Source: Bacteroidales bacterium
GTDB taxonomy: Bacteria; Bacteroidota; Bacteroidia; Bacteroidales; Marinilabiliaceae
Length of the DNA stretch: 47,406 bases
Reading direction: 5' to 3'
Assembly (NCBI GenBank): GCA_012838865.1
Contig: DUOK01000175.1
Coordinates: forward strand, 1-47,406
The position numbers were made by a program, and so were the translations under genes. The notes under the pieces were generated by a model. The model was given only the letters and a program-made list of their open reading frames with translations, did not search any database and was not told the origin of the DNA. Shown here piece by piece: positions 8,104 to 28,002 of this stretch (the stretch's first letter is position 1; the number at the start of each line of letters is the position of its first letter).

Positions 8104-11100
8104 ATGTACCACTACAGAACCTTTATTGCCCTTATACTAATCGGACTCTTTGTGCCTGTGAGCGCTTGGGCGCAGACGCACCTTTTTCATCCGGTAGAAC
8201 AGCCTCTGTCGAACAGTTATGTACGCTGTATATATAAAGACAGTAAGGGTTACCTCTGGGCAGGCACCTTTAACGGACTCAATCGCTACGATGGAGCCGG
8301 CATACAGACCTATCATCACGAAGCCGGCAAAACCAACACCCTCAGTCACAACATGGTCAATGCCTTGCTCGAGGACCATCAGCAAACCCTGTGGGTAGGG
8401 ACTTCCGAAGGACTGAATTACTACGACCGGGAAAAGGATGCCTTCCACTACATCATACATCGGCCCGACCTGGAAAACCGACACAACAACAGCTGCATTA
8501 CCGCCCTTTGTCAACCCGACACCACGACCCTTTGGATGGGAACCCGCGGCGGCGGGGTGAACATTTACCGCTACGCCGAAAAACGCTTTGACTTCCTCTT
8601 CCTAACGGCCTCCAAGTTGCTGGACGAAGCCAGCAACCACATCACCTGTCTGCAACAACACCACAACACCATATGGGCAGGAACAGCGGGGGGACTGTTC
8701 CGGATCAACCGGGAGACCCTGGTGGTGAGTCCTGTTCAACACCCCCTACTCGCCCGGACCAATATCAACGCCCTGGCCCTCCGGGGAGACAGTCTGTGGG
8801 TCGCCACTCCCGAAGCACTCTATCTGGCCGTTCTTAGTGAAAACACCCCCGCAGTCTTTGCTCCGGTAAAGCAAGTGCCGCAACAAAACATCAGCGTATT
8901 GCATCCCCATCAAAATGGAGCAGAATTGTGGTTGGGCTATGAAAATGGGGGACTGGGCTGTTACCGCCCCGCAGACCAAACCTTCAGCCACTACCACCAC
9001 CAGCCGGGCCTACGCAACGGTCTGCCCGACAACACCATTTGGAGTCTGCACAGCGACGAGGCCGGACGCCTGTGGGTGGGGACCTACAAGCAGGGTTTGC
9101 ACCTGCACGATCCTTATTACGACAAGTTCCTGAATTTTGAACACAATCCCTACGACCCCCTCTCGCTGAGTCACAATAACGTGCGAGCTTTTGCCGAAGA
9201 TCCGGAAGGTCGCCTCTACGTAGCGACCGACGGAGGCGGTCTCTCCCTCTTTGTACCCCATGCGCAGGAGGCATACAGCGGGCAAGCCCTGCCCGACCAC
9301 CTCCAAAATCTGCCCACACAAGCCCTAACCACCCTATTGTACAGCAAGCAGCACCAACTTTGGGCAGGCACCTGGGGAAGTGGCCTTGTACAAATCGATC
9401 TCGACAAAAAGACAAGAAAAATCCATCCTCTTTCCCCAACGAACTCAGCAGCGAACAGACTCTTCAGTCTCTATGAAGACAGGGCGGAAAACATCTGGGC
9501 GGGAACGGCCGGTGAGGGCTTGTACGTAAAAAAGAAGAACAGCCCCCATTTTCAAAAAGCCGGGAAAAGTTTCGAGGGACTCGAACTGCCCGAAGACGCC
9601 TTCATCACCTTCATCTTTGAGGACCAGGGCAAGGACTTGTGGATAGGCTCCCTCTATGGACTGTTTCGCTTCCACCGGCAAAACGGAAGCATCATCCAAA
9701 AATCGGTCTATTACAAAGAACTCTCCGGCAAAGGACTGGAAAGCAACTCTTTTCAGTGTGTACACCAGGATGCCCGGGGACGCATCTGGCTGGGAACCTT
9801 CGACCGGGGCGTGGCCCGCTACCATCCCGAAACCGATCGCTTCACCCACATCCATACCGAGCATGGTCTCGCCGGCAATATGATTCAGGCTATCTTGTCG
9901 GACCAGGACGGGCAGCTCTGGATAAGCAGTGAGCAGGGACTCAGCTGCTGGGATCCCGAAAGGTCGACTTGCATCAACTACAGCGAAGCCGATGGCCTTT
10001 TAACCAAAAACTTTCAAGGCAACGCCGCACTGAGCTTAAATAAGGGCTCACTTCTTTTCGGAACCACGGAGGGTTTTCACCTGATTGATCCAAAACGTCT
10101 GCCCAAAAACCCCCACAGCGGAGCTCCCCAAATCACCGCCCTCCACCTCCTTACCCGCAGCGCCGAAGCAGACAGCAGCTCAAGCTGGTCACCCCTTCAT
10201 AACAAGCAGACCCTTAAGCTGTCTCACCAACAAAACAGTTTCACCCTGACCTTTACCGCACTCAACTACACCCGTCCCGAAAACAATCGCTACCGCTATA
10301 AAATGGATGGCTGGGACCCGCAATGGAACGAAAGCAAAAACCCGGAAGTGAACTACCACAACCTCTCCCCCGGCCGCTATACCTTTCTGCTGCAAGCAGC
10401 CAACAACGACGGCATCTGGAGCGAAAACACCGCCCAGGTAAACCTGAGCATTCAACCGCCCCTTTGGCGCAGCTGGGCCCTTCTGCCCCTCTACCTCCTG
10501 CTGGCCGGATCCATTGTTTATCTCTTGATTGTACTCCGCTTACGCCGCCTGCAACTTCTCCACAATTATCAAAACAATAAGGCCCATTTACAAGTCTACG
10601 AAAAATGGTCCCATGAGCTGCGCACCGCTTTAAGCCTCATTGCGGCACCCTCCGAAAAATTACTGGACCAGCCCGCCCTTTCGCCTGAAATCCGGGCCGA
10701 ATTGCAGCGCCTGCGCAAAAACACCCTACAGCTCAGCAACTTGTCGCAAAAACTCTTGCTGCAGAAAGCCGACATCTCCCAAAACCCTGCGCCCGAAGCA
10801 AGCCCTCCCAGGCCAGACACCCTCCAGGCTCAGGACGAGCACCCCATAGAAAACGAAGCGCGCCACGAGATTTTGTTGATCGAAGACAACGAAGAATTAC
10901 TTGATTTTCTGGACCGTGAACTCCGCCGCCAATACACCATTTACAAAGCAGTAAATGGCGAAGAAGGCTTGCAAATGGCCCTGGAGAAATTGCCCGACCT
11001 GGTCGTCAGCGATGTGATGATGCCCGGCATGTCGGGGACCACCCTTTGCGCTCAGTTGAAAAAGGACCTGAGCACCTGTCACATCCCCATTTTGTTGCTC

Positions 11101-11625
11101 ACCGCCAAAGCCAGCGACCAGGACCAGGCAGAAGGCTTGCTCACAGGCGCCGACGCCTACATCACCAAGCCCTTTAGTATGAAAGTATTGCTGGCGCAAA
11201 TACAGCAACTTATTCAAAACCGTCAGCAACTCTACCACACCTTCCGCCAAAGCGGCTATTTGCTTCCCAGTCGCAACAAAAGCCAAAAAAGCGACGAAAA
11301 CTTCCTAAGCCAAATCGTTGCGCTCATTCGGGGGGACCTGTCCAACACCAACCTCAATGTAGAAGCCCTGGCCGAAAAGACCGAACTCTCGCGCACCCAG
11401 CTGTACAAAAAAATTAAAGCCCTAACAGGCTTGTCCGCAGTAGAATTTATCCGGGAAGTCCGACTGAAAGAAGCCGTGCTGCTCATGGAAGAAGGCGATC
11501 TCAGTCTCACAGAAGTCGCCTACCAAAGCGGTTTCAACTCTCCATCCTACTTCTCCAGAAGTTTTAAAGAGTATTATGGCTTCAGCCCCTCAGAACTGAC
11601 GCATAAAAAGATGCGAAAAGAGTAG
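8104..11625 (+). CDS. HTCS-type regulator: signal peptide, Reg_prop beta-propeller, Y_Y_Y, TM, degenerate HisKA, receiver, AraC HTH; no HATPase domain
   Basis: Repeated LWVGT / WAGT propeller motifs; ENNRYRYKMDGWDPQW..SPGRYTFLLQAANNDG Y_Y_Y; SHELRTALSLI H-box; VVSDVMMPG and ITKPF receiver; AraC C-terminus. Start placed at MYHYRTFIALILIGLFVPVSAWAQ (ORF opens at 8035). Confidence 0.93.
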   Translation: MYHYRTFIALILIGLFVPVSAWAQTHLFHPVEQPLSNSYVRCIYKDSKGYLWAGTFNGLNRYDGAGIQTYHHEAGKTNTLSHNMVNALLEDHQQTLWVGTSEGLNYYDREKDAFHYIIHRPDLENRHNNSCITALCQPDTTTLWMGTRGGGVNIYRYAEKRFDFLFLTASKLLDEASNHITCLQQHHNTIWAGTAGGLFRINRETLVVSPVQHPLLARTNINALALRGDSLWVATPEALYLAVLSENTPAVFAPVKQVPQQNISVLHPHQNGAELWLGYENGGLGCYRPADQTFSHYHHQPGLRNGLPDNTIWSLHSDEAGRLWVGTYKQGLHLHDPYYDKFLNFEHNPYDPLSLSHNNVRAFAEDPEGRLYVATDGGGLSLFVPHAQEAYSGQALPDHLQNLPTQALTTLLYSKQHQLWAGTWGSGLVQIDLDKKTRKIHPLSPTNSAANRLFSLYEDRAENIWAGTAGEGLYVKKKNSPHFQKAGKSFEGLELPEDAFITFIFEDQGKDLWIGSLYGLFRFHRQNGSIIQKSVYYKELSGKGLESNSFQCVHQDARGRIWLGTFDRGVARYHPETDRFTHIHTEHGLAGNMIQAILSDQDGQLWISSEQGLSCWDPERSTCINYSEADGLLTKNFQGNAALSLNKGSLLFGTTEGFHLIDPKRLPKNPHSGAPQITALHLLTRSAEADSSSSWSPLHNKQTLKLSHQQNSFTLTFTALNYTRPENNRYRYKMDGWDPQWNESKNPEVNYHNLSPGRYTFLLQAANNDGIWSENTAQVNLSIQPPLWRSWALLPLYLLLAGSIVYLLIVLRLRRLQLLHNYQNNKAHLQVYEKWSHELRTALSLIAAPSEKLLDQPALSPEIRAELQRLRKNTLQLSNLSQKLLLQKADISQNPAPEASPPRPDTLQAQDEHPIENEARHEILLIEDNEELLDFLDRELRRQYTIYKAVNGEEGLQMALEKLPDLVVSDVMMPGMSGTTLCAQLKKDLSTCHIPILLLTAKASDQDQAEGLLTGADAYITKPFSMKVLLAQIQQLIQNRQQLYHTFRQSGYLLPSRNKSQKSDENFLSQIVALIRGDLSNTNLNVEALAEKTELSRTQLYKKIKALTGLSAVEFIREVRLKEAVLLMEEGDLSLTEVAYQSGFNSPSYFSRSFKEYYGFSPSELTHKKMRKE

Positions 11626-11839: not shown

Positions 11840-13381
11840 CTATTTTTCCACAAGGTTCTTCACCTGAGCAAAGAGAAAAGCCTCTCCCTCCTGGGGAAAA
11901 ACCCGAACATTCTTCATCTGCAGACCATCCACCTCCATAAACTCGGCGCCATAGCGGGCAGAAATCGTCACATTCTCCAAATTGATGTTTGAGATGGGCA
12001 TCTCGGGCAAACCATGAAAATACATCGCCCTGCGCGCATTGACCGAAGTCACATTTTTAAAGGAGAGGTTCCTGAACATCGGCGTTTCCTCAGTAACAGG
12101 CAACAAATCTCTTTCAGCAACTGCACCATCTTCCCCTGCAGCCAGGGCTTCACTGGCCGACTTTCCACCATAGTAAAGATTAAAGCGAAAAGAGTCGGTG
12201 GAAATATCGTGCATACTTACATTCTCCACAAAGATGTTTTCGACAACGCCACCTCGTCCTCGGCGACTCTTGAAGCGTAAACCCACATCGGTGCCCAAAA
12301 AAGAACAAGAGCGTACCAAAATATTACGTACCCCGCCAGACATTTCACTGCCCACCACAAAGCCTCCGTGCCCGCGATAAACCACACAATTCTCCACAAT
12401 TACATTTTCTGTGACACGTGCCCTGCGCCGCCCATCCTCGTCCTTTCCTGATTTGATGCAAATGCCGTCGTCGCCCACATCAAAGGAGCTGTTTACCACC
12501 AGGGCGTTGCGACAAGATTCCAAATCCAAACCGTCGCCGTTCTGTGCGTAAGAGGGATTGCGTACCTGAATGCCGTCAATAATAACATTCTCACACATCA
12601 AGGGATGCAAATTCCACGAAGGCGAATTACTAAAAATCACCCCCTGCAAAAAAACATTCTTACATGCTATAAAACTGACCATGACCGGCCGTAAAAAATC
12701 TTTTACCGCCAGCCATTCTTCCTCAGTAGTCAGATGCTGCGGCACATTCATATTGCTGATGGTATCGCCGTGAAGCGCCCCGGCGGAAGGAAACCAATAG
12801 TTGTCGCGCTTAAAAACTCCTCCACGGGACACAAAGCTGCGCCACTGACTTTCGGTCACCTTATCCCGCTTAACCGGTCGCCACTCGTCCCCTGCCCCAT
12901 CAATGGCGCCATGACCCACAATGGCAATATTCTCCAACTGTCTTCCAGAAATGGGCGACTGACAGCGCCGGGTGTCGAGTCCCTCAAAAACAGTTTCCAC
13001 CAGAGGGTACAGGGACTTGTCGCGACTGAATAGAATCACTGCACCCTTTTCGAGGTACAAGCGGATATTGCTCCGAAACACAATGGGTCCGGTATGCCAC
13101 ACGCCGGCAGGCACATAAAGCGTTCCGCCGCCCTGCCCGGCCAACTCTTGCATAGCGCGTTCAAAAGCCTGGGTATTTAAAAACTGTCCATCCCCCTTTC
13201 CACCTGCATCTCTCAAATCCACCTGCCGATCGGGAAAAGTCGGCGGCACCAAAACCTCCATCTCAAAAGGCAAATCCTCAAAATAAACCGCATAAGGCGA
13301 ACGCTCCTCCCCGCCACAAGCAACCAACAACAGCGACAGCGTCGCACCAACAAAAATCATCCTAAGGCTCATATTCCCCAT
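11840..13381 (-). CDS. Glycoside hydrolase family 28-like (polygalacturonase-type) lipoprotein
   Basis: Lipobox LLLVACG; beta-helix; GH28-like motifs NGDGLDLES, VGDDGICIKSG, GHGGFVVGSE, LRFKSRRG. Confidence 0.9.
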   Translation of the reverse strand: MGNMSLRMIFVGATLSLLLVACGGEERSPYAVYFEDLPFEMEVLVPPTFPDRQVDLRDAGGKGDGQFLNTQAFERAMQELAGQGGGTLYVPAGVWHTGPIVFRSNIRLYLEKGAVILFSRDKSLYPLVETVFEGLDTRRCQSPISGRQLENIAIVGHGAIDGAGDEWRPVKRDKVTESQWRSFVSRGGVFKRDNYWFPSAGALHGDTISNMNVPQHLTTEEEWLAVKDFLRPVMVSFIACKNVFLQGVIFSNSPSWNLHPLMCENVIIDGIQVRNPSYAQNGDGLDLESCRNALVVNSSFDVGDDGICIKSGKDEDGRRRARVTENVIVENCVVYRGHGGFVVGSEMSGGVRNILVRSCSFLGTDVGLRFKSRRGRGGVVENIFVENVSMHDISTDSFRFNLYYGGKSASEALAAGEDGAVAERDLLPVTEETPMFRNLSFKNVTSVNARRAMYFHGLPEMPISNINLENVTISARYGAEFMEVDGLQMKNVRVFPQEGEAFLFAQVKNLVEK

Positions 13382-13456
13382 TTTAGCAATTAATTATTTC
13401 CCCAACTCCAGACAGCCCATAATAAATGGACCGTTGGCCTCGGCAACCACCAAAAC

Positions 13457-16400
13457 CTATTGCACCAGAGTAAGTCCAAGCAATCCAATAAGCACTTCAT
13501 TAGCCACGGCCTCCAGTTCCAGCGCCTCCAGTTCACGTGAGGCGTCAAGAGGGAGATCCAGGATAAGGCCCGCCCCGCCATCAATGCTGCGACCATAAAC
13601 CTCATCCGGGTCAATAGCCATCAGAGCCTCCATATTACGTGACACCTCCCCGGTTTTTAAAGCAACCCGGTAAGGGCGGGGGAAGGGACTGTAAAAGGCA
13701 TGCTCGTCCAGGAAAAGGTCCTGCTCAATGGGCAACCAGTTGTTGGGATTGATCAATTCCAGCACTTCCTCCCCGCCATCCTTGTACTTCACGCGTATGC
13801 GACCGTTTACCAAATGGCTCTGCATATGATTGGTAGAGCCCGCCATCAGCAAATAAACATGCTGTGCATGACCTTCCAAAGGGATTTGTGCGCGCTCAGG
13901 ATAATTGTCCCATTGCGAAACAAACAACACATTGGGTGCCACACTATCCCCCGCTACAGAAAAGGCCAGCCCCATAGGCGTTTCAAAAACACCCTCTTTT
14001 ACAGCAGAACGAAGACCGCTGTCGTCAATATCTGCGCTCAGTTTTGGGTGACACCATTCCCCAATACCCTGAACAGGAATTTGCAGGGTGGTAAATGGCG
14101 ACCGGGGGGAAAGGTATTGCTCATCAAAAATGGAGGACAGCGAGGCATTCACCCCATCCTTGATAGACACCAGTCGCTGTTCACGTTGGGGAGCCTCCAA
14201 ATTCCATAAAGACAAATCCTCTTGAAACAGTGCTTCATCGCCGACACGCAACTCGATGCGGTTACTGCCCAAAAAAACTTTTTCTTTGGGCACTTGCAGA
14301 GACTGCGACCAGCTGTCGGGAGCCAGTTCCAATCTGGTCGACCAGGCATAAGGACCGGGATTCACGACAACTTCCATGTCGACTGCGCTGCGCCCCTGAT
14401 TCTTTATGCGAAAACTCAGCTGTTCGGCTTCCACCTCTGTTTCCAGGGCAAAGGGGTGCATCAACTCCAGGTGCAGGGGTTGCCACCACAGCGCACTGCC
14501 CTCGCGCAATTGAACAAACAGGGTTTTTGCACCAACCGGCCCCTGCGTCCGGCCTGTCAACACCCCATCCTCGAAACGCACATGGCTCAGCGCACCTTGC
14601 GGGTCCTTCACAGCCTTAATTTCTGCCGCTAAGTCGACCTGCAGTTCCTCACCCGAAACCATCGCCAACTCTTTTACATCCAACTGATTTCCCCACAACT
14701 TGTCCCACGCCACAACAAGCTCAAGCTCCTCTTCCATAGGCAGCTCCAGAACAAGATAGGCCTGTCCAAGCCCTTCCTCCATCTGCCAGGAGTGGGAGCG
14801 CCCATTTACCCTGACGGAACGTACCCCGGGACCCAGCGCCCTTAATTTTAACTCCAGGGTGTCGGCTGCATCCATACGACAATGAAAAGTATAAAGACTC
14901 CGAAGCCCCTCCTGACGGTAACTGAAATCCAGATACGACGCGGAAAAAGACGCGTGTTCCCAAGCTGCAGGAAAGCCGGGACGGATGACCAGTCGACGGT
15001 TCAACAAGTCCGGTTGGATGCCATAAAGCCCCTCAACCAGGGCCCTGGAATACATCCCAACAGGATCACCAAAATCGCGGTAACACTCCCCTCTGGCCGC
15101 ATCGTAAAAACTGATTTGACCGATGTTGCCGGGACTGCTGCCCAGGTACATACCATCCAGCAAAATACTCTTGAACAACTTTGCAGCCACATCGCTTCGC
15201 CCGCTTTGCCAATAAGCCAGCGCAGTATGTGCCACCTCGGCAAAAGCTACATTGTTGACCGACCAGGAATAGGGAAACCAGTTGGTGGTAGAAAGCGTGT
15301 AATAACCCTCATCAGGCAAACCCTTGGCCCTTATCGGAATATGTGGAATCTGTGTATCGATGTAACGCGTAGCCTGATAAGCCTGAAAAGGCGTATGGAC
15401 CTCCGAGTCTATGGCATGATAAATGGTCCACAAGCCCGGCTTATCGTGCACCAGGCCCAAGCCCATATAGTCCTGAAACTCGGCCCAATGGCCCTCTCCC
15501 TCCAACCACAGCCGCTGGTTAAGCGCTTCCAGAATACGTTCCGCCTCCTTTTGATAGGGGCCGGGATCTTCTCCAATTTTTTGAGCCACCAGGGCCACCA
15601 AACGATTGGCCCTATAGTTATAGGCCGAGGTGTAGGTCACCGCTCCACTGTTGTAATACAAAGCATCACTCGCCCAAATGGCCGCACAGGCATCGTAAAG
15701 ACCATCGTTGTCGGGATCATAATTGCGCTTCTCCCATTCGAGATGCGCCTTTAATACCGGCCATACTTCCCGTGCATAAGACAAATCTCCCGTCCAGTTT
15801 AAATGCCACAAAAGCGCATCGATGTACACCAGATTCATATTGTAATGGTGCATTTGGTTGGGATTTTCGGGATTGCGTGCAATGTAGCCATTGGAGTACA
15901 TTTGTGTACCCCATTGTTTGAGTGGACGCGCCAAATTCAGGGCAGAATCGGGGGTGGCATGCGGCAAAACCGGCTCAAGCGCTGTGACCTGCGAAGCGGC
16001 ATAACGACTGAAATGTCGTCGGTTTCGCTCACTCCATCCAATAAAATCACCCGTGTAAGCGGCCCGCCAGCCATTAAGCGGCATACGCCACCCAATGGCC
16101 CCGTGCAACCACACATCTTCCCAAAGCCCATCAGCAGCTGCAGTCAAGGCCCCACCCAGGGTGTTAAAATAAGGATCGGGGGTTTCCACCTTTAAAGCAC
16201 TGCCCAGCAGCTTACTCCGCTCCAAAGCCTGGGCAAAGACCTCATCCAAATCCTTGTCCGCCAAAGCACTTGCCCCTTCCACATTCTGCAAGGCAAAAAA
16301 GTGCGTAAAGTCGCCCGACACCTGCCACTGTGCACCTAAAACAGGCTTCGCCTCCTCGACCTGAGAAGCCCAAAATTCAGCAGGACTGCCTAAGTCATAA

Positions 16401-17083
16401 GGCGAAAGCAAGCGTAGGGTGGCGGGGGGACTAAAACGGCCTTCGACCCGGGTCGGATTGCGGGTCTCCTGACCGTAATCCAAAATAAAACCGCCTTTCG
16501 TCAGACTGTAATCGTTGTTGCGACAGGCCTCAGCATCCAAATCAAAAGCATTGACCTCATCCACGCCCAAATCGGCATTTCGGTAAAAACGCTTACTGTC
16601 TGCGCCCCCATACATCGTCAACAAACGAGACCCTGCAGGCAAATCCGCTCCGCTCAATTTAACCACAACACCACGGCCTTCAGCCATGGCCAGAACCTCC
16701 AGCTCCAAACGTCCACCCGCTAGAAGTGGATCCTCCACCCGATAGGTCCTGATACCTGCCCGCGATTCCGCACGCACCCAGGAGGCATCTGCCAGCCAAA
16801 GGCTGCCCCTGGAGGTTTCAATCCCCCATTGCAAATGGCCACCCCGATAAGGCATATACAAACCCAGCACAGGCACATCACTGGTCTCCACCCGAAAGGA
16901 AGACCCCGAGGCATACAAAGCCTTATTGTACCTCAACTTTCCGTTTTCAATAACAAAGGATTCCCCCTCAGGCCGGTAGCGCAGTTCACGCTCTGTTCCC
17001 TGCCAAACACCATAAGCACTTTGTGCAAACAGCTCTGTTCCCAGACCAAAAAAAAATCCGACAAAAACAAGTATTTTCAACAT
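13457..17083 (-). CDS. Large secreted (alpha/alpha)6-barrel glycoside hydrolase-like protein with DUF4450-like N-terminal region
   Basis: Signal peptide (MLKILVFVGFFFGLGTELFAQ); central DGLWEDVWLHGAIGWRMPLNGWRAAYTGDFIGWSERNRRHF and YDPDNDGLYDACAAIWASDALYYNSGAVTYTSAYNYRANRLVA resemble (alpha/alpha)6 glycosidases. Confidence 0.75.
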   Translation of the reverse strand: MLKILVFVGFFFGLGTELFAQSAYGVWQGTERELRYRPEGESFVIENGKLRYNKALYASGSSFRVETSDVPVLGLYMPYRGGHLQWGIETSRGSLWLADASWVRAESRAGIRTYRVEDPLLAGGRLELEVLAMAEGRGVVVKLSGADLPAGSRLLTMYGGADSKRFYRNADLGVDEVNAFDLDAEACRNNDYSLTKGGFILDYGQETRNPTRVEGRFSPPATLRLLSPYDLGSPAEFWASQVEEAKPVLGAQWQVSGDFTHFFALQNVEGASALADKDLDEVFAQALERSKLLGSALKVETPDPYFNTLGGALTAAADGLWEDVWLHGAIGWRMPLNGWRAAYTGDFIGWSERNRRHFSRYAASQVTALEPVLPHATPDSALNLARPLKQWGTQMYSNGYIARNPENPNQMHHYNMNLVYIDALLWHLNWTGDLSYAREVWPVLKAHLEWEKRNYDPDNDGLYDACAAIWASDALYYNSGAVTYTSAYNYRANRLVALVAQKIGEDPGPYQKEAERILEALNQRLWLEGEGHWAEFQDYMGLGLVHDKPGLWTIYHAIDSEVHTPFQAYQATRYIDTQIPHIPIRAKGLPDEGYYTLSTTNWFPYSWSVNNVAFAEVAHTALAYWQSGRSDVAAKLFKSILLDGMYLGSSPGNIGQISFYDAARGECYRDFGDPVGMYSRALVEGLYGIQPDLLNRRLVIRPGFPAAWEHASFSASYLDFSYRQEGLRSLYTFHCRMDAADTLELKLRALGPGVRSVRVNGRSHSWQMEEGLGQAYLVLELPMEEELELVVAWDKLWGNQLDVKELAMVSGEELQVDLAAEIKAVKDPQGALSHVRFEDGVLTGRTQGPVGAKTLFVQLREGSALWWQPLHLELMHPFALETEVEAEQLSFRIKNQGRSAVDMEVVVNPGPYAWSTRLELAPDSWSQSLQVPKEKVFLGSNRIELRVGDEALFQEDLSLWNLEAPQREQRLVSIKDGVNASLSSIFDEQYLSPRSPFTTLQIPVQGIGEWCHPKLSADIDDSGLRSAVKEGVFETPMGLAFSVAGDSVAPNVLFVSQWDNYPERAQIPLEGHAQHVYLLMAGSTNHMQSHLVNGRIRVKYKDGGEEVLELINPNNWLPIEQDLFLDEHAFYSPFPRPYRVALKTGEVSRNMEALMAIDPDEVYGRSIDGGAGLILDLPLDASRELEALELEAVANEVLIGLLGLTLVQ

Positions 17084-17104
17084 AAGCTACACATCAACCC
17101 TTCT

Positions 17105-19216
17105 CTAAGGCATTACCATTAAATCTTCCCAAACCACCTTCCAACTCCCGTCATCCGGAAAGCCAGGTGTGGGCAGCTCGTTACCGTCCCAGCCCGCACA
17201 CATCATAGCCACAGCAGTGAGCAAACCCCCATTGCCCGGCAAATAAACCCTTAAGCGCGCATCCTGATAATTGTGCCCGTTAATAAGATAAGTATTGGTA
17301 CGCTTATCCATAAGCAGGGCACCCACCGCCTTCTCACGATCACCCAGGCGGGCCGCATTCATCGCCGTCATAGGATAATCCCACCCCCAGGTCTTACCCC
17401 AATTCCAGTTGTCCCATATCCAGTCGAGGGTGTTCTGCATATAATCGGTACGAATCAAATTATTTTGAGGCAACATACCCATTGCACCGAGCACAGCAGG
17501 GTGGTCTGAAGTAAAACGAATGTCCTTGTAGGTATCCACAGCATCCTCCGAAGCCAGATACAAGCCATCCAACTCCGCCAAAGGCGGCAACTTATCAATA
17601 ATCTCATCCCATTGCACACGACGCGACTTTCCAGCGCGCTCGCGCCATTTCTGAGCCACCGAGAGCCCGTAGTGCCAGTACGACAATTCAAAGGGGGGAT
17701 TGATGGTCTCCACCGCACGCAAAGTTTCCTGGGCAGGAATCACCCCTTGCAAAATATAGCGCCCCTCCATCATATCATAATCTGCAAAAGAAGCCATAAA
17801 TGCCGCCGTTTCCTCCACCAAAAAGCCATACTTTTCAAGCACTTCGGGGGTAGGGGAACTGCGGTAAAGCAGTTCGGCCATATAAATAAAATGCGGCTGC
17901 TGCCAAATCAGGAAGGAGCCCACTCCCGATGGGGCTTCCGTAGCAGAAGGATCCGTCATTTTCATCCATCGACAACCCTTAAAGCCCTGCCGCTCGGCAA
18001 TTTCTTTGGCCATCGGATAGGCCGCTGCGTACCAGTCCATACTCCGCTCCAGCAACTCAGGTCGCCCCCATAGCGCAAAATGCACACCATGCCACCAGTG
18101 CATCTCCAGATGAAACTTACCGTACCAACTGTTGTAGGTCAAACCGGTTTCCTGCGGCGGATACATGCCGGCCGACTGTATGGCCATCAAATACTGCGAC
18201 AACACCACCCGGCGTTCCAGCTCTTTAGCGCCCGCTGCCGTGCTTCCGGAAAAATCAACCGCGCCACCATTCTTCCAAAACTGCTGCCAGTAATCCGAAG
18301 CGTCCGACAAAACCATTTCCACCTCCAGATCCTCCTTAACCGGCTCCTCCACAAATGCACAACTAAAAGAGAAATCTTTCTGTGCAGGCTCCAAAACAAA
18401 ATAATGGGCCTCCTTTTCGCGCAGGGAGGCCTTTCCCTCCCAACTGATCCGCACATAATACACCGCTTCGTCCAGCGTCCGCTTCAACAGCGCACTTTGC
18501 GCATCCTGCTCCACCAGGGTCGTCAGATGCTTCTCAGGAACACTCCAATCAGTAGCATCATCGGCATGCTGCCCACTTGGATAAGGAAAACGAAAAGAAA
18601 TCCCCAGTTCTCCCCGCTCCAGCAAGGGCGAACTCAGCGCAGCCGCCAGCACATCCCGATTGGGATCCACTGCAGTTTTAACCGCCACCGAATCACCATT
18701 CAACACAAAGCGACTGCGAATGGTGCCGTTCCACAAATCCAATTCCTGATGCGGGTCCTGAATGTCCGAAGGCCGCAGGCCCTCAGCCTCAAAACCTACA
18801 TAACCCAAATGCAAGCGATGCGGATTCACCCGAAACCAATTGGCTGCATCCTTTGAGCGTCCGGGTTCACCAAACTGCACAGAATAAGGCTCCGGCTTCC
18901 CCCTGAAATCATAGTCCTTTAAGGTCTCCTCAAAACGAAAGTTCTCCGGATTCGGAAAGCTGTGCCAGCCCCATTGCGACTGCGTACCCAGCGGCATGCC
19001 TTTGGCATAAAAATCCGGAAAAGTCTGCAAACCCGTTGCATCTACGGTCACCGCAAAATTCCCATTGCCTACCGACAAGGCCGACAATTCTTCTACTTCA
19101 GTTACCAGGGGGCTGTTGCGCTTAACCAGTGCATAGCGGTCTATTTTTCCGACCTCCTCTTCCTTACATCCAAAGAATACACCAATCAACAAAACAATTA
19201 AAAACCAGTACTTCAT
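17105..19216 (-). CDS. Lipoprotein, GH65/GH95-like (alpha/alpha)6-barrel glycosidase
   Basis: Lipobox GVFFGC after the internal start MKYWFLIVLLIG (19216; ORF extends to 19336); SVGNGNFAVTVDATGLQTFPDFY, NSWYGKFHLEMHWWHGVHFALWGRPELLERSMDWY, MTAMNAARLGDREKAVGALL. Confidence 0.75.
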   Translation of the reverse strand: MKYWFLIVLLIGVFFGCKEEEVGKIDRYALVKRNSPLVTEVEELSALSVGNGNFAVTVDATGLQTFPDFYAKGMPLGTQSQWGWHSFPNPENFRFEETLKDYDFRGKPEPYSVQFGEPGRSKDAANWFRVNPHRLHLGYVGFEAEGLRPSDIQDPHQELDLWNGTIRSRFVLNGDSVAVKTAVDPNRDVLAAALSSPLLERGELGISFRFPYPSGQHADDATDWSVPEKHLTTLVEQDAQSALLKRTLDEAVYYVRISWEGKASLREKEAHYFVLEPAQKDFSFSCAFVEEPVKEDLEVEMVLSDASDYWQQFWKNGGAVDFSGSTAAGAKELERRVVLSQYLMAIQSAGMYPPQETGLTYNSWYGKFHLEMHWWHGVHFALWGRPELLERSMDWYAAAYPMAKEIAERQGFKGCRWMKMTDPSATEAPSGVGSFLIWQQPHFIYMAELLYRSSPTPEVLEKYGFLVEETAAFMASFADYDMMEGRYILQGVIPAQETLRAVETINPPFELSYWHYGLSVAQKWRERAGKSRRVQWDEIIDKLPPLAELDGLYLASEDAVDTYKDIRFTSDHPAVLGAMGMLPQNNLIRTDYMQNTLDWIWDNWNWGKTWGWDYPMTAMNAARLGDREKAVGALLMDKRTNTYLINGHNYQDARLRVYLPGNGGLLTAVAMMCAGWDGNELPTPGFPDDGSWKVVWEDLMVMP

Positions 19217-19273
19217 AGCTGAAAATTTTTCATTATAACACAAAAGCAATCTTCCTTCACTGCCCCCTTTCAA

Positions 19274-19281
19274 CAAAATTA
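19274..19281 (-). promoter_or_regulatory. Candidate -7 element for the glycosidase operon
   Basis: Reverse-strand TAATTTTG (TAnnTTTG), about 58 nt upstream of the start at 19216; no well-spaced -33 element seen. Confidence 0.4.
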
Positions 19282-19413
19282 ACAATTCTTGCACACAATC
19301 CCTCCAATAGGCAAAATTTGAATATTTATACGCCATATTGGAATTTTCGACAGCAAAACTGCGGATTTAATAAAAAAATGACAGCAAAGCGTATTTTTTT
19401 TTACGATTATGGC

Positions 19414-19442
19414 TTTGATTAATGACAAAATTCATACATTTG
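19414..19442 (+). promoter_or_regulatory. Candidate promoter of the ilv attenuator transcript (TTTG N17 TACATTTG)
   Basis: TTTG 19414-19417 and TAnnTTTG (TACATTTG) 19435-19442, with the leader ATG 25 nt downstream. Confidence 0.7.
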
Positions 19443-19466
19443 CATAGTCAACAACAAAATCAGGAC

Positions 19467-19526
19467 ATGAAACTTTTTGCATCTCTCCTTCTCGTAGTCA
19501 TTATTGTTCTCGTGGTGAACCATTAG
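19467..19526 (+). CDS. Branched-chain amino-acid leader (attenuator) peptide MKLFASLLLVVIIVLVVNH
   Basis: ATG AAA CTT TTT GCA TCT CTC CTT CTC GTA GTC ATT ATT GTT CTC GTG GTG AAC CAT TAG; 12 of 19 residues are Leu/Val/Ile; upstream of ilvD and followed by a terminator. Confidence 0.88.
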   Translation: MKLFASLLLVVIIVLVVNH

Positions 19527-19527
19527 A

Positions 19528-19586
19528 GAAGTGAGACAGGTATGTAAAAAGTTAAGCGACATAAAACTTAAGACCCCTCTCACTTC
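19528..19586 (+). promoter_or_regulatory. Candidate antiterminator pairing (segments 2:3)
   Basis: GAAGTGAGA (19528-19536) is the exact reverse complement of TCTCACTTC (19578-19586), which overlaps the terminator 5' arm. Confidence 0.8.
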
Positions 19587-19606
19587 AACGGTGAGAGGGG
19601 TTTTTG
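19573..19606 (+). terminator. Attenuator terminator (segments 3:4)
   Basis: CCCCTCTCAC (19574-19583) / GTGAGAGGGG (19591-19600), 10-bp perfect stem, loop TTCAACG, TTTTT tract. Confidence 0.9.
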
Positions 19607-19647: not shown

Positions 19648-21489
19648 ATGAAGATTCCATTGCGCAGCAACACCACCACCCAGGGCCGAAGAATGGCCGG
19701 CGCCCGCAGCTTATGGCGGGCCAACGGAATGAAGGACGAACAAATGGGCCGCCCCCTGATTGCGGTGGTCAATTCCTTCACCCAGTTTGTACCCGGTCAC
19801 GCCCACCTGCACCAAATCGGTCAGGACGTTAAAAAACTGATCGAAAAGCAGGGCTGCTTTGCTGCGGAATTCAACACCATCGCCATCGACGACGGCATCG
19901 CTATGGGACACGACGGCATGCTCTACTCCCTGCCCTCGCGGGATTTGATCGCCGACAGCGTAGAATACATGGTCAATGCCCACAAGGCCGACGCCATGAT
20001 ATGCATCAGCAACTGCGACAAAATCACGCCCGGTATGCTTATGGCCGCCATGCGCCTGAACATCCCCGTGGTTTTTGTATCGGGTGGACCTATGGAAGCG
20101 GGCAAGCACGACGGCAAGGCCCTGGATTTGGTCGACTCTATGGTGATGGCCGCCGACGACAGCGTCAGCGACGCCGACGTACTGGCCGTGGAACAGAATG
20201 CCTGTCCCACCTGCGGCTCCTGCTCGGGCATGTTTACCGCCAACTCCATGAACTGCCTCAACGAGGCTTTGGGACTGGCCCTGCCGGGCAACGGCTCCGT
20301 TGTAGCCACCCACGTGAACCGTCGACAACTCTTCGAAGACGCCGCCAACCAGATTGTAAAACTGGCCTACCGCTATTACCAGGACGGCGATGTTTCTGTA
20401 TTGCCCCGCAACATCGCCACCAAGGCGGCCTTTATGAACGCCATGACCCTCGACATTGCCATGGGCGGAAGCACCAATACCGTGCTGCACCTCCTGGCCA
20501 TTGCCCACGAAGCGCAGGTCGATTTTAGCATGGACGACATCGACCAGCTTTCCCGCAAGACGCCGGTTTTGTGCAAAGTGGCCCCCAACAGCAACTACCA
20601 CATGGAGGACGTCAACCGGGCCGGAGGCATCCTGGGCATATTGGCAGAATTGGAGCGGGGACAACTCATCGACAGCAGTGTGGGCCGCATCGATTATCCC
20701 AGTCTGGCCGAAGCCATCCGCCATTACGACGTAATGAGTAAGGACTGCCTGCCCCGCGCCAAAGACCTTTATCAAAGTGCCGCCGGTGGTTTCGTCAACC
20801 TGAAACTGGCCAGTCAGAAAGCCGCCTACAGCAGCCTGGATCTCGACCGCGAAAAAGGCTGCATCCGCAGCGTGGAGCACGCCTATTTTAAGGACGGGGG
20901 ACTGGCCGTACTCTTCGGCAACATTGCCCAGCAAGGCTGCATCGTTAAAACAGCAGGCGTAGATCCCTCCATCTTTAAGTTCAAAGGGACGGCCCGTGTG
21001 TACGAATCGCAGGACGACGCCAGCGAAGGCATCCTTTCCGGAGAAGTAAAGGCCGGAGAAGTCGTCTTCATCCGCTACGAAGGACCCAAAGGAGGACCGG
21101 GTATGCAAGAAATGCTTTACCCGACCTCCTACCTGAAGTCGCGCCAGCTGGGTGCCCTCTGTGCCCTGGTCACCGACGGCCGCTTTTCGGGCGGCACCTC
21201 CGGTCTTTCGATCGGTCACGTCTCGCCCGAGGCAGCAGCAGGCGGCAACATTGCCCTGATTCAAAACGGCGACCCGGTAGAAATCGACATCCCCGCCCGC
21301 AGCATCAACATCATGGTAGATGAATCCACGCTGACGGCCCGTCGCGAAAAAGAAAAGGCCAAAGGAGCCGCCGCCTTTAAACCAAAACAACGCGAGCGTG
21401 TTGTTTCTAAAGCCTTAAGAGCTTATGCCAGTATGGTGACCTCGGCCGACCGGGGCGCCGTCCGGATTTTACCCGGTGAAACAATGTAA
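19648..21489 (+). CDS. ilvD: Dihydroxy-acid dehydratase
   Basis: [77 protein letters not shown]. Confidence 0.98.
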
Positions 21490-21524: not shown

Positions 21525-23258
21525 ATGGAAACACAAACCCAAGCAAAAAGCCAGGAAAAGCCCGCCGGAGCCATCCGGATGACCGGCGCCGAGGCGGTAG
21601 TGCGATCGCTTCTGAATGAAGGGACCGAAATACTCTTCGGTTATCCCGGAGGAGCCATCATGCCCGTTTACGATGCGCTGTACTCCTTCCAGAAAGAACT
21701 GCACCATGTGTTGGCCCGACACGAGCAAGGCGCTGTGCATGCTGCCCAGGGTTACGCACGCGTCACTGGTCGGGTAGGTGTGGCCATAGTCACCTCCGGT
21801 CCCGGTGCAACCAATGCCGTTACCGGCATTGCCGATGCCATGATGGACTCTACCCCGCTGGTGGTCATCAGCGGACAGGTGGGTTCGGCCCTGCTGGGCT
21901 CCGATGCCTTCCAGGAGACCGATGTGGTAGGCGTTACCCAGCCCATCACCAAGTGGAATTTTCAGGTAAAAAAGGCCGAAGACATTCCCTATGCCATTGC
22001 CCGTGCCTTTTACATTGCCCGCAGCGGACGTCCCGGACCGGTACTCATCGACATCACCAAAGACGCCCAGTTTGCGAGCTTCGACTACCACTATGAGCCC
22101 GTACGCTTCATCCGCAGCTACAGGCCCACACCAAAAGTGGAGCCCGAACAGATTAAGGCGGCGGCGCGACTGATCAACTTTGCCAGGAAACCCCTGGCCT
22201 TGGTGGGCCAGGGCGTTATTCTGGGTAACGCCGAGCAGGAATTGCTCGACTTTCTCAAAAAGTCCGGCGTACCCGCCGCATGGACCCTCTTGGGCCTTTC
22301 GGCCATGCCCAGCGACCATCCGCAAAACGTAGGCATGCTGGGTATGCACGGCAACTACGGTCCCAACATCAAGACCAACGAAGCCGACCTGATCATAGCC
22401 ATCGGTATGCGCTTCGACGACCGGGTAACGGGCGATTTAAAAAACTACGCCACCAACGCCAAGGTGGTACATTTAGAAATTGACGAAGCCGAAATCAATA
22501 AAAACGTACACGCCGATGTTCCGGTACTGGGCGACGTGAAACAAACCCTGCCCCTGCTTACCGAGACCATCAGCCAGGGCGACCACAGTGCCTGGATGGA
22601 AGAGTTCAGGGCCTGCGACCGGATTGAGCACGAGCGCATCATTCGCGAAGAACTGGCCCCCTCCAAAAAAGGGATGACCATGGGCGAAGTCATTCACAAA
22701 GCCTCCAAGGCATTTAACGACGACGCCATTATGGTGACCGACGTAGGCCAGCACCAAATGATGGCCAGTCGCTATTTCCGCTTTAAGCAGACCCGCAGCG
22801 TGGTCACCTCAGGCGGTCTGGGCACCATGGGCTTTGGACTGCCCGCAGCCATGGGCGCCAAGCTGGGTGCGCCCCAGCGTCAGGTCTGTCTCTTTGTAGG
22901 CGACGGCGGTTTTCAAATGACCATTCAGGAACTGGGCACCATCTTCCAGTCCAAAATACCCGTTAAGATCGTACTGCTCAACAACAACTTTCTGGGCATG
23001 GTACGGCAGTGGCAGGAACTGTTTTTCGACAGTCGCTACGCCTCTACCGAACTGATCAACCCCGATTTCCAGACCGTCGCCAAGGGCTACCACATCGAAA
23101 CGGTAAAGGTGACCGAGCGCGAGGAGCTCGACCAGGCCATTGCCAAAATGGTGGCCCATGAGGGTGCCTACCTGCTCGAAGTCGTGGTAGAGAAAGAAGG
23201 CAACGTATTTCCGATGGTGCCGGCAGGCGCCTCGGTATCCGATATCCGCTTAGAGTAG
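21525..23258 (+). CDS. ilvB: Acetolactate synthase, large subunit
   Basis: EILFGYPGGAIMPVYDAL; ThDP motif GDGGFQMTIQELGTIFQSKIPVKIVLLNN. Confidence 0.98.
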   Translation: METQTQAKSQEKPAGAIRMTGAEAVVRSLLNEGTEILFGYPGGAIMPVYDALYSFQKELHHVLARHEQGAVHAAQGYARVTGRVGVAIVTSGPGATNAVTGIADAMMDSTPLVVISGQVGSALLGSDAFQETDVVGVTQPITKWNFQVKKAEDIPYAIARAFYIARSGRPGPVLIDITKDAQFASFDYHYEPVRFIRSYRPTPKVEPEQIKAAARLINFARKPLALVGQGVILGNAEQELLDFLKKSGVPAAWTLLGLSAMPSDHPQNVGMLGMHGNYGPNIKTNEADLIIAIGMRFDDRVTGDLKNYATNAKVVHLEIDEAEINKNVHADVPVLGDVKQTLPLLTETISQGDHSAWMEEFRACDRIEHERIIREELAPSKKGMTMGEVIHKASKAFNDDAIMVTDVGQHQMMASRYFRFKQTRSVVTSGGLGTMGFGLPAAMGAKLGAPQRQVCLFVGDGGFQMTIQELGTIFQSKIPVKIVLLNNNFLGMVRQWQELFFDSRYASTELINPDFQTVAKGYHIETVKVTEREELDQAIAKMVAHEGAYLLEVVVEKEGNVFPMVPAGASVSDIRLE

Positions 23259-23287: not shown

Positions 23288-23833
23288 ATGATGCAACAGG
23301 AATTCACACTCAGCATATTTTCGGAGAACCACGTGGGTCTGCTCAACCAGATCACCACCGTGTTTACCCGACGCAACCTCAACATCGAGAGTCTGGTTAC
23401 CTCCGAATCGGCCATCGCCGGCATCCACAAATTTACCATTGTGGTATTCAGCAGCCGCGAGGAAATTGAAAAGGTAGCCCGGCAAATCGAGAAGCGCATC
23501 GACGTCATCAAAGCCTTTGTGCTCACTGAAGACGAGATCATTCATCAGGAAATTGCCCTCTACAAGGTGCCCACCCGCACCCTGCTCAACGGCAACGAGA
23601 TTGAAAAACTCGTGCGCCAGTACGGCGCCCGCATTTTGGAAATCACCGAAGAATATACCGTGATTGAAAAAACCGGACACCATAAAGAGACCCAGGAGCT
23701 TTTCGATAAAATGGACCAATACGGTGTGGTGCAGTTTACCCGTTCGGGACGCATTGCCGTAACCAAGGCCAAGGCCGAGCTGCTCGACAATTACCTGCGT
23801 AAGGCCGAACTCGACAAGCAGGAACTCAACTAA
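23288..23833 (+). CDS. ilvN: Acetolactate synthase, small (ACT-domain) subunit
   Basis: FTLSIFSENHVGLLNQITTVFTRRNLNIESLVTSES ACT domain, directly downstream of ilvB. Confidence 0.95.
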   Translation: MMQQEFTLSIFSENHVGLLNQITTVFTRRNLNIESLVTSESAIAGIHKFTIVVFSSREEIEKVARQIEKRIDVIKAFVLTEDEIIHQEIALYKVPTRTLLNGNEIEKLVRQYGARILEITEEYTVIEKTGHHKETQELFDKMDQYGVVQFTRSGRIAVTKAKAELLDNYLRKAELDKQELN

Positions 23834-23907: not shown

Positions 23908-24957
23908 ATGGCTAGAATCAATTTCGGTGGAACCGAAGAAAATGTAGTTACCAGAGAGGAATTCCCCTTGAAAAAGGCACAGGAAGTGCTCAAAGACGAA
24001 GTGATCGCAGTAATTGGTTACGGCGTTCAGGGACCCGGTCAGGCCCTCAACCTCAAAGACAATGGCTTCAATGTAATCATTGGCCAGCGTAAAGAGTCCA
24101 AGACCTGGGACAAGGCGGTAGCCGACGGCTGGGAACCCGGCAAAACCCTGTTTCCCATCGAAGAAGCCCTCGACAAGGGAACCATCATCCAGTACCTGCT
24201 GTCCGACGCCGGTCAGATCAGCGTATGGCCTACCGTTCAGAAATACCTGAAGCCCGGTAAAGCCCTGTACTTCTCTCACGGTTTTGGTATAACCTACAAG
24301 GAGCGCACCGGCATTGTTCCGCCCAAAGACGTAGATGTTATTTTGGTGGCCCCCAAAGGTTCGGGTACCAGTCTGCGTCGCATGTTCCTCGAAGGACGCG
24401 GCCTCAACTCCAGCTACGCCATCTTCCAGGACGCCACCGGCAAAGCCAAGGATCGTGTAGTAGCCTTAGGTATTGGTGTAGGCAGCGGTTACCTTTTCGA
24501 AACCACCTTCCAGAAGGAAGTGTACAGCGACCTGACCGGAGAGCGTGGGACCCTGATGGGCGCCATCCAGGGCATCTTTGCTGCCCAGTACGAAGTATTG
24601 CGTAAGAACGGCCACAGTCCCTCCGAAGCCTTCAACGAGACCGTTGAAGAGCTGACCCAGAGCCTGATGCCATTGGTGGCTGAGAACGGTATGGACTGGA
24701 TGTACGCCAACTGTTCCACCACCGCCCAGCGTGGTGCGCTCGACTGGTGGAAGAAATTCCGCGACGCCTCTTTGCCCGTATTCAGCGAACTCTACGACGA
24801 GGTAGCCAAAGGCAACGAAGCCCAGCGTTCCATCGACTCCAACAGTCAGTCGGACTACCGGGTAAAACTGGAAGCAGAACTCAAGGAGTTGCGTGAATCG
24901 GAAATGTGGCAAGCCGGCGCCGCCGTGCGCAAGCTGCGTCCCGAAAACGACAAATAA
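23908..24957 (+). CDS. ilvC: Ketol-acid reductoisomerase
   Basis: VIAVIGYGVQGPGQALNLKDNGFNVIIGQRK; ALYFSHGFGI; AILVAPKGSGTSLR-type region; C-terminal ILVC domain. Confidence 0.97.
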   Translation: MARINFGGTEENVVTREEFPLKKAQEVLKDEVIAVIGYGVQGPGQALNLKDNGFNVIIGQRKESKTWDKAVADGWEPGKTLFPIEEALDKGTIIQYLLSDAGQISVWPTVQKYLKPGKALYFSHGFGITYKERTGIVPPKDVDVILVAPKGSGTSLRRMFLEGRGLNSSYAIFQDATGKAKDRVVALGIGVGSGYLFETTFQKEVYSDLTGERGTLMGAIQGIFAAQYEVLRKNGHSPSEAFNETVEELTQSLMPLVAENGMDWMYANCSTTAQRGALDWWKKFRDASLPVFSELYDEVAKGNEAQRSIDSNSQSDYRVKLEAELKELRESEMWQAGAAVRKLRPENDK

Positions 24958-24972
24958 ATCAAGTATTTTAAA

Positions 24973-25010
24973 CCCGGGGCAACACCAGGGGTGTTGCCCC
25001 GGGCTTTTTT
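24973..25010 (+). terminator. Strong intrinsic terminator between ilvC and leuA
   Basis: CCCGGGGCAACAC / GTGTTGCCCCGGG, 13-bp perfect stem, loop CAGGG, followed by CTTTTTT. Confidence 0.9.
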
Positions 25011-25055
25011 CCTTCCAAAGAAAAATCCGGAATCACCGGACTAAAAGAGACAAAC

Positions 25056-26552
25056 ATGAGCAACAGAGTCTATATTTTCGACACCACATTACGGGATGGC
25101 GAACAAGTCCCCGGCTGCCAGTTGAACACCATTGAAAAAATTGAAGTGGCGCGTCAACTCGAGAAACTCGGGGTGGACATTATTGAAGCCGGCTTTCCGG
25201 TCTCCAGTCCCGGCGATTTCAACTCTGTGGTGGAAATCTCAAAAGCCCTTACCAACCCCACCATTTGTGCACTGACCCGTGCCGTAAAAAAAGACATTGA
25301 AGTGGCCGCCGACGCCTTGAAATTCGCCAAAAAAGGACGCATCCACACCGGCATCGGCACCTCGCCCTACCACATCTTCAACAAACTCAACTCCAATCCC
25401 GAAGCCATTATTGAGCGGGCTGTGGAAGCCGTTAAATACGCCAAAAAGTTTGTAGAAGACGTAGAGTTCTATGCCGAAGACGCCGGCCGCTCAGACAACG
25501 AATACCTGGCCCGCGTAATAGAGGCCGTCATCAAAGCAGGCGCCACCGTGGTCAACATTCCCGACACCACCGGCTACTGCCTGCCCTCCGAGTACGGCGA
25601 AAAAATCGCCTACCTGGTCAATAAGGTACCCAACATCGACAAAGCCATCATTGCCACCCACTGTCACAACGACCTGGGTATGGCCACCGCCAACACCGTT
25701 TCGGGCATCATCAACGGCGCCCGTCAGGTAGAGGTGACCATGAACGGCATTGGCGAGCGGGCCGGCAACACCTCCCTCGAAGAAGTGGTGATGACCCTGC
25801 GCGCCCACAAGGATCTGGACTTCGACACCAACATCGACAGCAAGCAGATCATGAAGACCAGCGGACTGGTATCCACGCTTATGCGCATGCCCATCCAGCC
25901 CAACAAGGCCATTGTGGGGCGCAACGCCTTTGCCCACTCCTCGGGCATTCACCAGGACGGGGTACTCAAAAACCGCGAAAACTACGAAATCATCGATCCG
26001 GTGGAAGTCGGCGTAAAAGAATCGTCGATTGTACTCACCGCCCGCAGCGGGCGTGCTGCCTTGAAGCACCGCCTGGGCGTGCTGGGCTACGATTACGAAC
26101 CCAGCGAACTCGACAACATATACAACCGCTTTTTGGACCTGGCCGACAAGAAAAAGGACATCACCGACGAAGATCTGGAAATCCTGGTCGGCCGCGAAAA
26201 GCAAGCCGGCAAAAAGCCCATCGAACTGGTATCGCTGCAGGTCATGTGTGGCAAGTCCACCATCCCCACCGCCACCGTTCAGGTCAGCTTCCACGGCGAC
26301 ATCTTTACCGAAACCGCCTCGGGCAACGGGCCCATCGACGCCGCCTTCACCGCTGTAAAAGCGCTGGTGAAGCGCCGGGTGCGCCTCGAAGAATTTTTGA
26401 TTCAGGCCATCACCCGCGGCAGCGACGACCTGGGCAAGGTACACGTACAGGTAGAGCACAAAGACCAGATTTACTACGGCTTTGCTGCCCACACCGACAT
26501 CGTGACCGCATCCGTGGAAGCCTTCCTCGATGCCCTGGGCAAAATACAATAA
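25056..26552 (+). CDS. leuA: 2-isopropylmalate synthase
   Basis: [56 protein letters not shown]; LeuA dimer regulatory domain. Confidence 0.96.
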
Positions 26553-26601: not shown

Positions 26602-28002
26602 TTGGCTGGAAAAACACTTTTCGACAAAATCTGGGAGAAACATGTTGTCAACAACGTAGAAGGAGGACCCAGTGTATTGTACATCGACCGCCATTTGATT
26701 CACGAGGTAACCAGTCCTCAGGCGTTCGCAGGCTTAAAAGCAAGAGGGATTAAGGTCGCCCGGCCCGAAAAAACCGTGGCCACCCCCGACCACAACATCC
26801 CCACCATGGAACAGCACCTGCCCATCCACGATGAGCTGAGTCGCTTCCAGGTGAACAAACTCAAAGAAAACTGTGAAGCCAACGGCATAACCATGTACGG
26901 TTTAACGCATCCTTACAACGGCATTGTGCACGTAATAGGACCGGAATTGGGTCTTACCCGTCCGGGCATGACCATTGTGTGTGGCGACAGTCACACCTCT
27001 ACCCACGGGGCCTTCGGCAGCATTGCCTTTGGTATTGGCACCAGCGAAGTAGAGATGGTGCTGGCCACCCAGTGCCTCATGCAATCGCGTCCCAAAACCA
27101 TGCGCATCAACGTAGAAGGCGAGCTGCAAAAAGGCGTGACCTCCAAAGACATCGTCCTCTACATCATTTCTCAAATCTCCACCGGAGGCGCCACCGGCTA
27201 CTTCGTGGAATTTGCCGGATCGACCATTCGTAAGCTCTCCATGGAGGCCCGCATGACCATCTGCAACATGAGTATTGAGATGGGTGCCCGCGGCGGCATG
27301 ATTGCCCCCGACGAAACCACCATTGAGTACGTTAAAGGCCGCGAATTTGCCCCCAAGGGCGCCGAGTGGGACAAGGCGGTAGCCGAATGGCGCCAGCTGC
27401 CCAGCGACCCCGATGCCGTATTCGACAAAGAGTTGACCTTTAAGGCCGAAGACATTGAGCCGATGATTACCTACGGCACCAATCCCGGTATGGGCATCGG
27501 CATCAGCGCCCACATTCCCAAGGTTGAGGACATCGAGAAAGCTTCACAAAACAGCTTTAAAAAGTCGCTCCAGTACATGGGCTACCAACCCGATGAGCCC
27601 ATGATAGGCAAAAAAGTGGACTACGTATTTGTCGGCAGCTGTACCAACGGGCGCATCGAAGACCTGCGCGCCTTCGCCGCCTTTGTAAAAGGCAAAAAGA
27701 AGGCCGACAACGTGACCGCCTGGATCGTTCCCGGCAGTAAGCAGGTCGAGAAGCAAGCCATTGAAGAAGGACTGCGCGACATCCTCGAGGAAGCAGGTTT
27801 TTACCTGCGTCAGCCCGGCTGTTCGGCCTGTCTGGCCATGAACGACGACAAAATTCCGGAAGGTCAGTACGCCGTAAGTACCTCCAACCGGAACTTCGAA
27901 GGCCGTCAGGGACCCGGTGCCCGCACCATGCTGGCCAGTCCCCTTACCGCCGCAGCCACCGCCATCAACGGCGTCATCACCGACCCGCGGACCATGCTGT
28001 AA
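26602..28002 (+). CDS. leuC: 3-isopropylmalate dehydratase large subunit (TTG start)
   Basis: [68 protein letters not shown]. Frame opens with TTG. Confidence 0.96.

Follow-up and report, generated by a model that had tools for sequence, protein, structure and literature searches.

A candidate ribosome-mediated transcription attenuator upstream of ilvDBNC in a Marinilabiliaceae bacterium and its conservation among relatives

The sequence analysed covers positions 1-47,406 of the forward strand of contig DUOK01000175.1 (assembly GCA_012838865.1, Bacteroidales bacterium, Marinilabiliaceae), and this whole 47,406-nucleotide stretch is referred to as the window. Its plus strand carries ilvD (19648-21489, dihydroxy-acid dehydratase, NF009103 and TIGR00110), which would be the first regulated gene, followed by ilvB (21525-23258, acetolactate synthase large subunit, TIGR00118), ilvN (23288-23833, acetolactate synthase small subunit, TIGR00119), ilvC (23908-24957, ketol-acid reductoisomerase, TIGR00465), leuA (25056-26552, 2-isopropylmalate synthase, TIGR00973), leuC (26602-28002, isopropylmalate dehydratase large subunit, TIGR00170), leuD (28104-28697, isopropylmalate dehydratase small subunit, TIGR00171), a reading frame at 28777-30327 and leuB (30355-31419, 3-isopropylmalate dehydrogenase, TIGR00169). 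Each of the eight ilv and leu genes named here matches at least one NCBIfam model above its cut-off. The reading frame at 28777-30327 had been called leuA2 in a first-pass annotation of this DNA, a name that we abandon given that its best match is the (R)-citramalate synthase model NF042433 (CimA), with 653 bits for a model cut-off of 950 bits, which is not reached, and a score about twice that of its best isopropylmalate synthase model. It is most likely cimA, whose product would supply isoleucine from pyruvate, and the isoleucine route of the operon is likely to run via citramalate. Upstream of the leader described below, the gene at 17105-19336 lies on the minus strand, divergent from ilvD; the minus-strand region 11840-19336 as a whole looks like a polysaccharide-degradation cluster (GH28-like, DUF4450/glycoside hydrolase-like) divergent to the ilv operon.

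Ahead of ilvD, a Bacteroidota-type promoter of the form TTTG-N17-TACATTTG was found by pattern match at 19414-19442 on the plus strand (-33 element TTTG at 19414-19417, -7 element TACATTTG at 19435-19442), with 0.67 such matches expected by chance within the window. It would place the start of transcription near 19447-19450. In nearly all relatives a TAnnTTTG motif is present, mostly 24-44 nt 5' of the leader ATG. The leader peptide reading frame itself (MKLFASLLLVVIIVLVVNH, 19 residues, 19467-19526, plus strand) ends at the TAG at 19524-19526, and its codons 7-17 are 11 consecutive Leu/Val/Ile codons, LLLVVIIVLVV. The leader thus holds codon runs for the very amino acids that are the products of the downstream ilvDBNC and leu genes. 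No conserved Shine-Dalgarno sequence precedes the ATG across the ilvD leaders of the relatives.

The four plus-strand segments of an RNA switch that had been proposed here are all found exactly in the sequence. Segment 1 (TCTCTCCTTC, 19482-19491) lies inside the leader reading frame, in the 5' arm of the protector helix 1:2 (19471-19493), and segment 2, whose antiterminator core GAAGTGAGA (19528-19536) begins two bases past the leader stop, belongs to the 3' arm of the protector (19526-19553). Segment 3 (TCTCACTTC, 19578-19586, in a strand extending over 19573-19586) is common to the antiterminator, with segment 2, and to the terminator, with segment 4 (GTGAGAGGGG, 19591-19600, in the 3' strand of the intrinsic terminator at 19591-19602). 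Indeed, segments 2 and 3 are perfect reverse complements of each other, as expected from the perfect 9-bp helix 2:3 first described, and GGT at 19539-19541 pairs with ACC at 19573-19575 across a 2x2 internal loop, lengthening this helix to 12 bp in total. Likewise, 19574-19583 can pair without a mismatch with 19591-19600, which bears out the perfect 10-bp helix 3:4; the terminator stem pairs 19572-19583 with 19591-19602 and its T-tract (19601-19605) is present but short, TTTTT being followed by GCTT. The terminated RNA is predicted to be ~ 155 nt long, ending at the T-tract. The pairing 1:2 was also recovered; what did not stand is its description as a short helix with one internal loop, since it forms a 23-bp helix with small bulges between 19471-19493 and 19526-19553. 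This protector overlaps the leader codons, with modest comparative support. An intrinsic terminator hence sits between the leader and ilvD, 45 nt from the latter, and it is excluded by the antiterminator since segment 3 is shared.

We compared these pairings with chance levels. When the post-leader spacer was dinucleotide-shuffled 5000 times, 19 shuffles gave an exact 2:3 match of 9 nt; the energy of the 2:3 duplex (-18.4 kcal/mol) was matched in 1 of 1000 shuffles and that of the 1:2 duplex (-24.8 kcal/mol) in none of 1000. The fold of the entire leader RNA reaches -55.9 kcal/mol (z = -5.6; no shuffle among 200 equally stable), and its dominant fold is the plus-strand terminator hairpin, in line with the terminator first proposed. 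A crude terminator scan called this hairpin on the minus strand only.

A search for IlvD in 61 related genomes gave 47 ilvD loci, and leader, antiterminator and terminator are found in the same order at 45 of the 47; L043 and L044 fit the attenuator anatomy poorly. A reading frame with at least 8 Ile/Leu/Val per 10 residues is present in 42 of the 47 relatives versus 1.6% of shuffled regions. Among the leader sequences, MTLFASLLLVVIIILVVNH is found within the genus, MNLFLSLILVNIIILVGQPGRSENGV and MKFNLSLILNIIIILVVIIRT within the family and others in the order. Between closely related leaders the gaps are multiples of three. The Leu/Val/Ile content is retained, and most codon differences between leaders affect the third position, are synonymous or swap Ile, Leu and Val for one another. 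At eight loci (L009, L011-L016 and L025) the leader reading frame crosses segment 2 and stops just past it rather than just before (e.g. ...GRSENGV*). Beyond these relatives, most of what a phylum-wide IlvD search (E <= 1e-50) brought up was an IlvD type of greater distance, whose genes showed no convincing leader. In a set of 80 named genomes that encode a close IlvD, a leader rich in Leu/Val/Ile together with a terminator turned up in 36, although some of the weaker cases may be due to chance. About 58 of the 80 are labelled Bacteroidota and hold all 36 leader carriers, and leader plus terminator was found in none of the ~ 22 non-Bacteroidota genomes (Desulfobulbaceae, Spirochaetes, Gallionellaceae etc.), bearing in mind that the labels of metagenome-assembled genomes can err. 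Carriers of the ilvD leader include Bacteroides, Phocaeicola, Alistipes, Odoribacter, Porphyromonas, Labilibaculum and Marinifilum.

Covariation was assessed on a sequence-only MAFFT alignment of the 45 loci. For the terminator helix 3:4, 89% of the cells are paired and 69 are doubly changed, compared to 20.1 in shuffles, while for the antiterminator helix 2:3 the values are 89% and 20 compared to 3.7; in both cases 0 of 500 shuffles were as high. The paired percentages lean towards the window sequence, from which the structures were derived, and more weight belongs to the doubly changed cells; these counts come from related, hence non-independent, sequences. For the protector 1:2, 62% of the cells are paired versus 36-50% in slid registers, so that the pairing is register-specific with weaker support, in part owing to an apparent shift of the helix from one lineage to another. 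Segment 3 therefore shows covariation with segment 2 as well as with segment 4, and the covariation across relatives that the first-pass annotation had suggested as a check was indeed found. A segment co-varying with two partners is the signature of alternative pairing and supports two mutually exclusive structures.

The behaviour of the switch was further modelled by folding the RNA up to 19588 under a 31-nt ribosome footprint, a size taken from general knowledge. With the A-site on Leu3 or on any of the codons Leu7 to Leu15, all 9 of the 9 core 2:3 pairs form, while with the ribosome on the stop codon the footprint lies over segment 2 and none of them does; at Val16 a stall is predicted to let 1:2 return. 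In the relatives, the antiterminator forms in 45 of 45 with the ribosome early in the Leu/Val/Ile run and in 15 of 45 with the ribosome at the stop. In 31 of the 45, the nascent RNA modelled without a ribosome folds preferentially into 2:3 on thermodynamic grounds. These models largely reproduce what is expected of the stalled and terminating states, whereas ribosome-free termination with a dominant protector is predicted clearly in some relatives only, this locus included. The notion that a ribosome at the TAG covers segment 2 and that stalling on branched-chain amino acid (BCAA) codons frees it thus agrees with the footprint folding, with exceptions among relatives. For the full-length RNA with a stalled ribosome, the minimum-energy fold keeps the terminator; since the latter is still lower in energy, antitermination would have to be kinetic, by trapping.

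According to the mechanism that we propose, transcription would begin near 19449 and a ribosome would start on the 19-residue leader peptide. With ample charged Leu-, Val- and Ile-tRNA, it would reach the TAG and cover segment 2, or alternatively leave and let the 23-bp protector form; with segment 2 either covered or held in 1:2, segment 3 would pair with segment 4 and RNA polymerase would terminate at ~ 19605. When leucine, valine or isoleucine is scarce, a stall in the LLLVVII codons would cover segment 1 and free segment 2, which would pair with segment 3 before segment 4 is made, giving read-through into ilvD, ilvB, ilvN and ilvC. The region is, with high confidence, a classic ribosome-mediated transcription attenuator strongly supported in silico, as had been proposed: the argument is carried by the leader and both helices recurring in order among the ilvD loci, by the compensatory changes and by the ribosome-position folding. 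We infer that the leader is translated, that transcripts end early in vivo and that starvation changes this outcome.

The attenuator had been put forward as controlling ilvDBNC and possibly the leu genes up to leuB. The first part holds in so far as a conserved attenuator would govern ilvDBNC. Control of leuA, leuC, leuD, the cimA-like gene and leuB is uncertain, since a terminator-like hairpin of 14 bp followed by CTTTTTT (24973-25003, plus strand) separates ilvC from leuA; an action of the ilvD attenuator on them as well is possible. This hairpin is the same in the closest relative, and in other relatives the large hairpins are others, most of them lacking a T run. Indeed, the ilvC-leuA gap (24958-25055; loci L118-L128) contains a large hairpin in every case while its sequence varies. 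Just upstream of leuA, in the window and in L118-L128, there is a small conserved CCGG-loop-CCGG hairpin followed by a AGAGACAAAC-like sequence. In some members of the order (L081, L089, L116), leuA has its own attenuator, whose leader is rich in Leu/Ile, e.g. MNQAFIHILLCGIIILLAKFSGSEYCA and MKQEMLNSLIISLNIILLWERDRK.

Leaders of the same kind are found elsewhere in the same genome. Ahead of hisG (C90, ~ 11050-11595, L110) there is a His leader, MLFIHHSNAHHHLLV (HH..HHH), with a terminator and an 11-bp antiterminator. Upstream of trpE (C206, upstream of 10862, ~ position 709, L111) lie the leader MQTIIRNNNWWWHTSVLIHGR (WWW) and a terminator, and pheA (C326:28736-28893, L079) is preceded by the Phe/Tyr-rich leader MKRGSYFYYFFYFFFWFYGQRGWVMCLPNRNEI, a GC-rich terminator and a complementary GGGGGTGGGTTAT segment. 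Across the class, the model R1 found related units before leuA, ilvE, ilvN and ilvB. R1 is informative at its top scores only, as matches below ~ 45 bits are mostly generic hairpins and E-values are rough; for this reason its tally of 83 of 149 genomes was set aside as evidence. Two R1 matches of ~ 27 bits in the genome of the window itself, near a ribosomal protein L28-like reading frame (L078) and an rpoC-like one (L080), were taken as chance, and the equally weak L079 is the Phe/Tyr leader ahead of pheA. Two BCAA leader and terminator units stand in tandem before a single gene at L115 (ilvE), L114 (ilvN-like) and L047 (ilvD). Both leaders of L114, MKNIINIAVIIIIIIIR and MKNSIQNSIIISIIIIRIT, are nearly pure Ile, which suggests Ile-specific control.

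Could another device account for the same anatomy? Metabolite-binding riboswitches and T-boxes also act through a terminator/antiterminator pair as their output, and were one of them at work here the leader reading frame would be incidental. However, no Rfam family has a match in the window at gathering score, and the relaxed threshold (E up to 5) gave chance-level matches with no T-box or amino-acid riboswitch among them; the T-box covariance model in particular had no match even there. Moreover, the leader peptide is well conserved, with its gaps in threes and its Leu/Val/Ile kept, and the hisG, trpE and pheA leaders carry their own matching amino acids, so that we consider a riboswitch or T-box very improbable.

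The leader might instead serve mainly to yield a trans-acting small RNA or small membrane peptide, the terminator merely ending the transcript, and indeed an RNA of ~ 155 nt would arise and the peptide is short and hydrophobic. Its hydrophobicity, though, is explained by its Leu/Val/Ile codons, the leaders with His, Trp or Phe/Tyr in the same genome differ in character yet fit their downstream pathways, and for a small RNA the covariation of 2:3 alongside 3:4 would be needless; such a product is, to our mind, just as improbable as a riboswitch. Least credible of all is a plain terminator of an upstream transcript with the ilvD promoter downstream of the repeats. While a strong hairpin with a T-tract does stand ahead of ilvD, the gene upstream (17105-19336) is read in the opposite direction and leaves nothing to terminate on the plus strand, the Bacteroidota-type promoter precedes the leader rather than following it and is conserved in that position, and the gap of just 45 nt separates the terminator from ilvD. 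Ribosome-mediated attenuation is the reading that we retain.

Ribosome-mediated attenuation is a textbook mechanism, known from the leader-peptide attenuators of enteric ilvGMEDA, ilvBN, leu, his and trp. The ilvD leader resembles these in its short reading frame of end-product codons, in the order of protector, antiterminator and terminator and in a first gene of the same pathway. It differs from them in having no Rfam leader-family match, a Bacteroidota-type promoter and no conserved Shine-Dalgarno sequence, as well as in an operon that has ilvD as its first gene and probably makes isoleucine via citramalate. Candidate amino-acid attenuators were reportedly predicted also in Bacteroidetes/Chlorobi by Vitreschak et al. 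2004, and Lopatovskaya et al. 2010 are said to have predicted attenuators by comparative genomics. The closest Rfam family to the ilvD leader is Bacteroid-trp RNA, RF01692 (PMC2864571, Table 1), which shares its phylum and overall architecture. It has Trp codons and trp genes, whereas this locus has Leu/Val/Ile codons and ilv genes and falls outside the family. Searching RF01692 in 41 genomes gave only Trp leaders, the matches in four relatives being WWW leaders before trpE or trpB, and no match was found in the window or in its own genome despite the WWW leader before trpE there. In other phyla, a leader peptide and alternative hairpins regulate BCAA genes with experimental support, namely in the attenuator of Corynebacterium glutamicum ilvBNC (PMC11857589) and in Staphylococcus aureus BCAA synthesis, with its leucine-rich attenuator peptide (PMC5794164); the likeness considered here is one of mechanism. 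Short open reading frames in long 5' UTRs of B. thetaiotaomicron have been called reminiscent of attenuating leader peptides, without a test (PMC7366714). In the open-access literature we found no experimental study of the ilvD leader element in Bacteroidota.

The mechanism is hence already known, and what the comparisons indicate is an element conserved among relatives that has no Rfam family. We lean, though only slightly, towards leader-peptide attenuation being the main and ancient amino-acid control across Bacteroidia, covering BCAA, His, Trp and Phe/Tyr with mostly Shine-Dalgarno-less leaders. If true, this would imply tight transcription-translation coupling, which to our knowledge is so far undemonstrated in Bacteroidota. 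Since attenuation requires a ribosome that keeps pace with RNA polymerase, ilvD-type leaders would be natural reporters of this coupling in Bacteroidota, and natural reporters for Shine-Dalgarno-free initiation as well.
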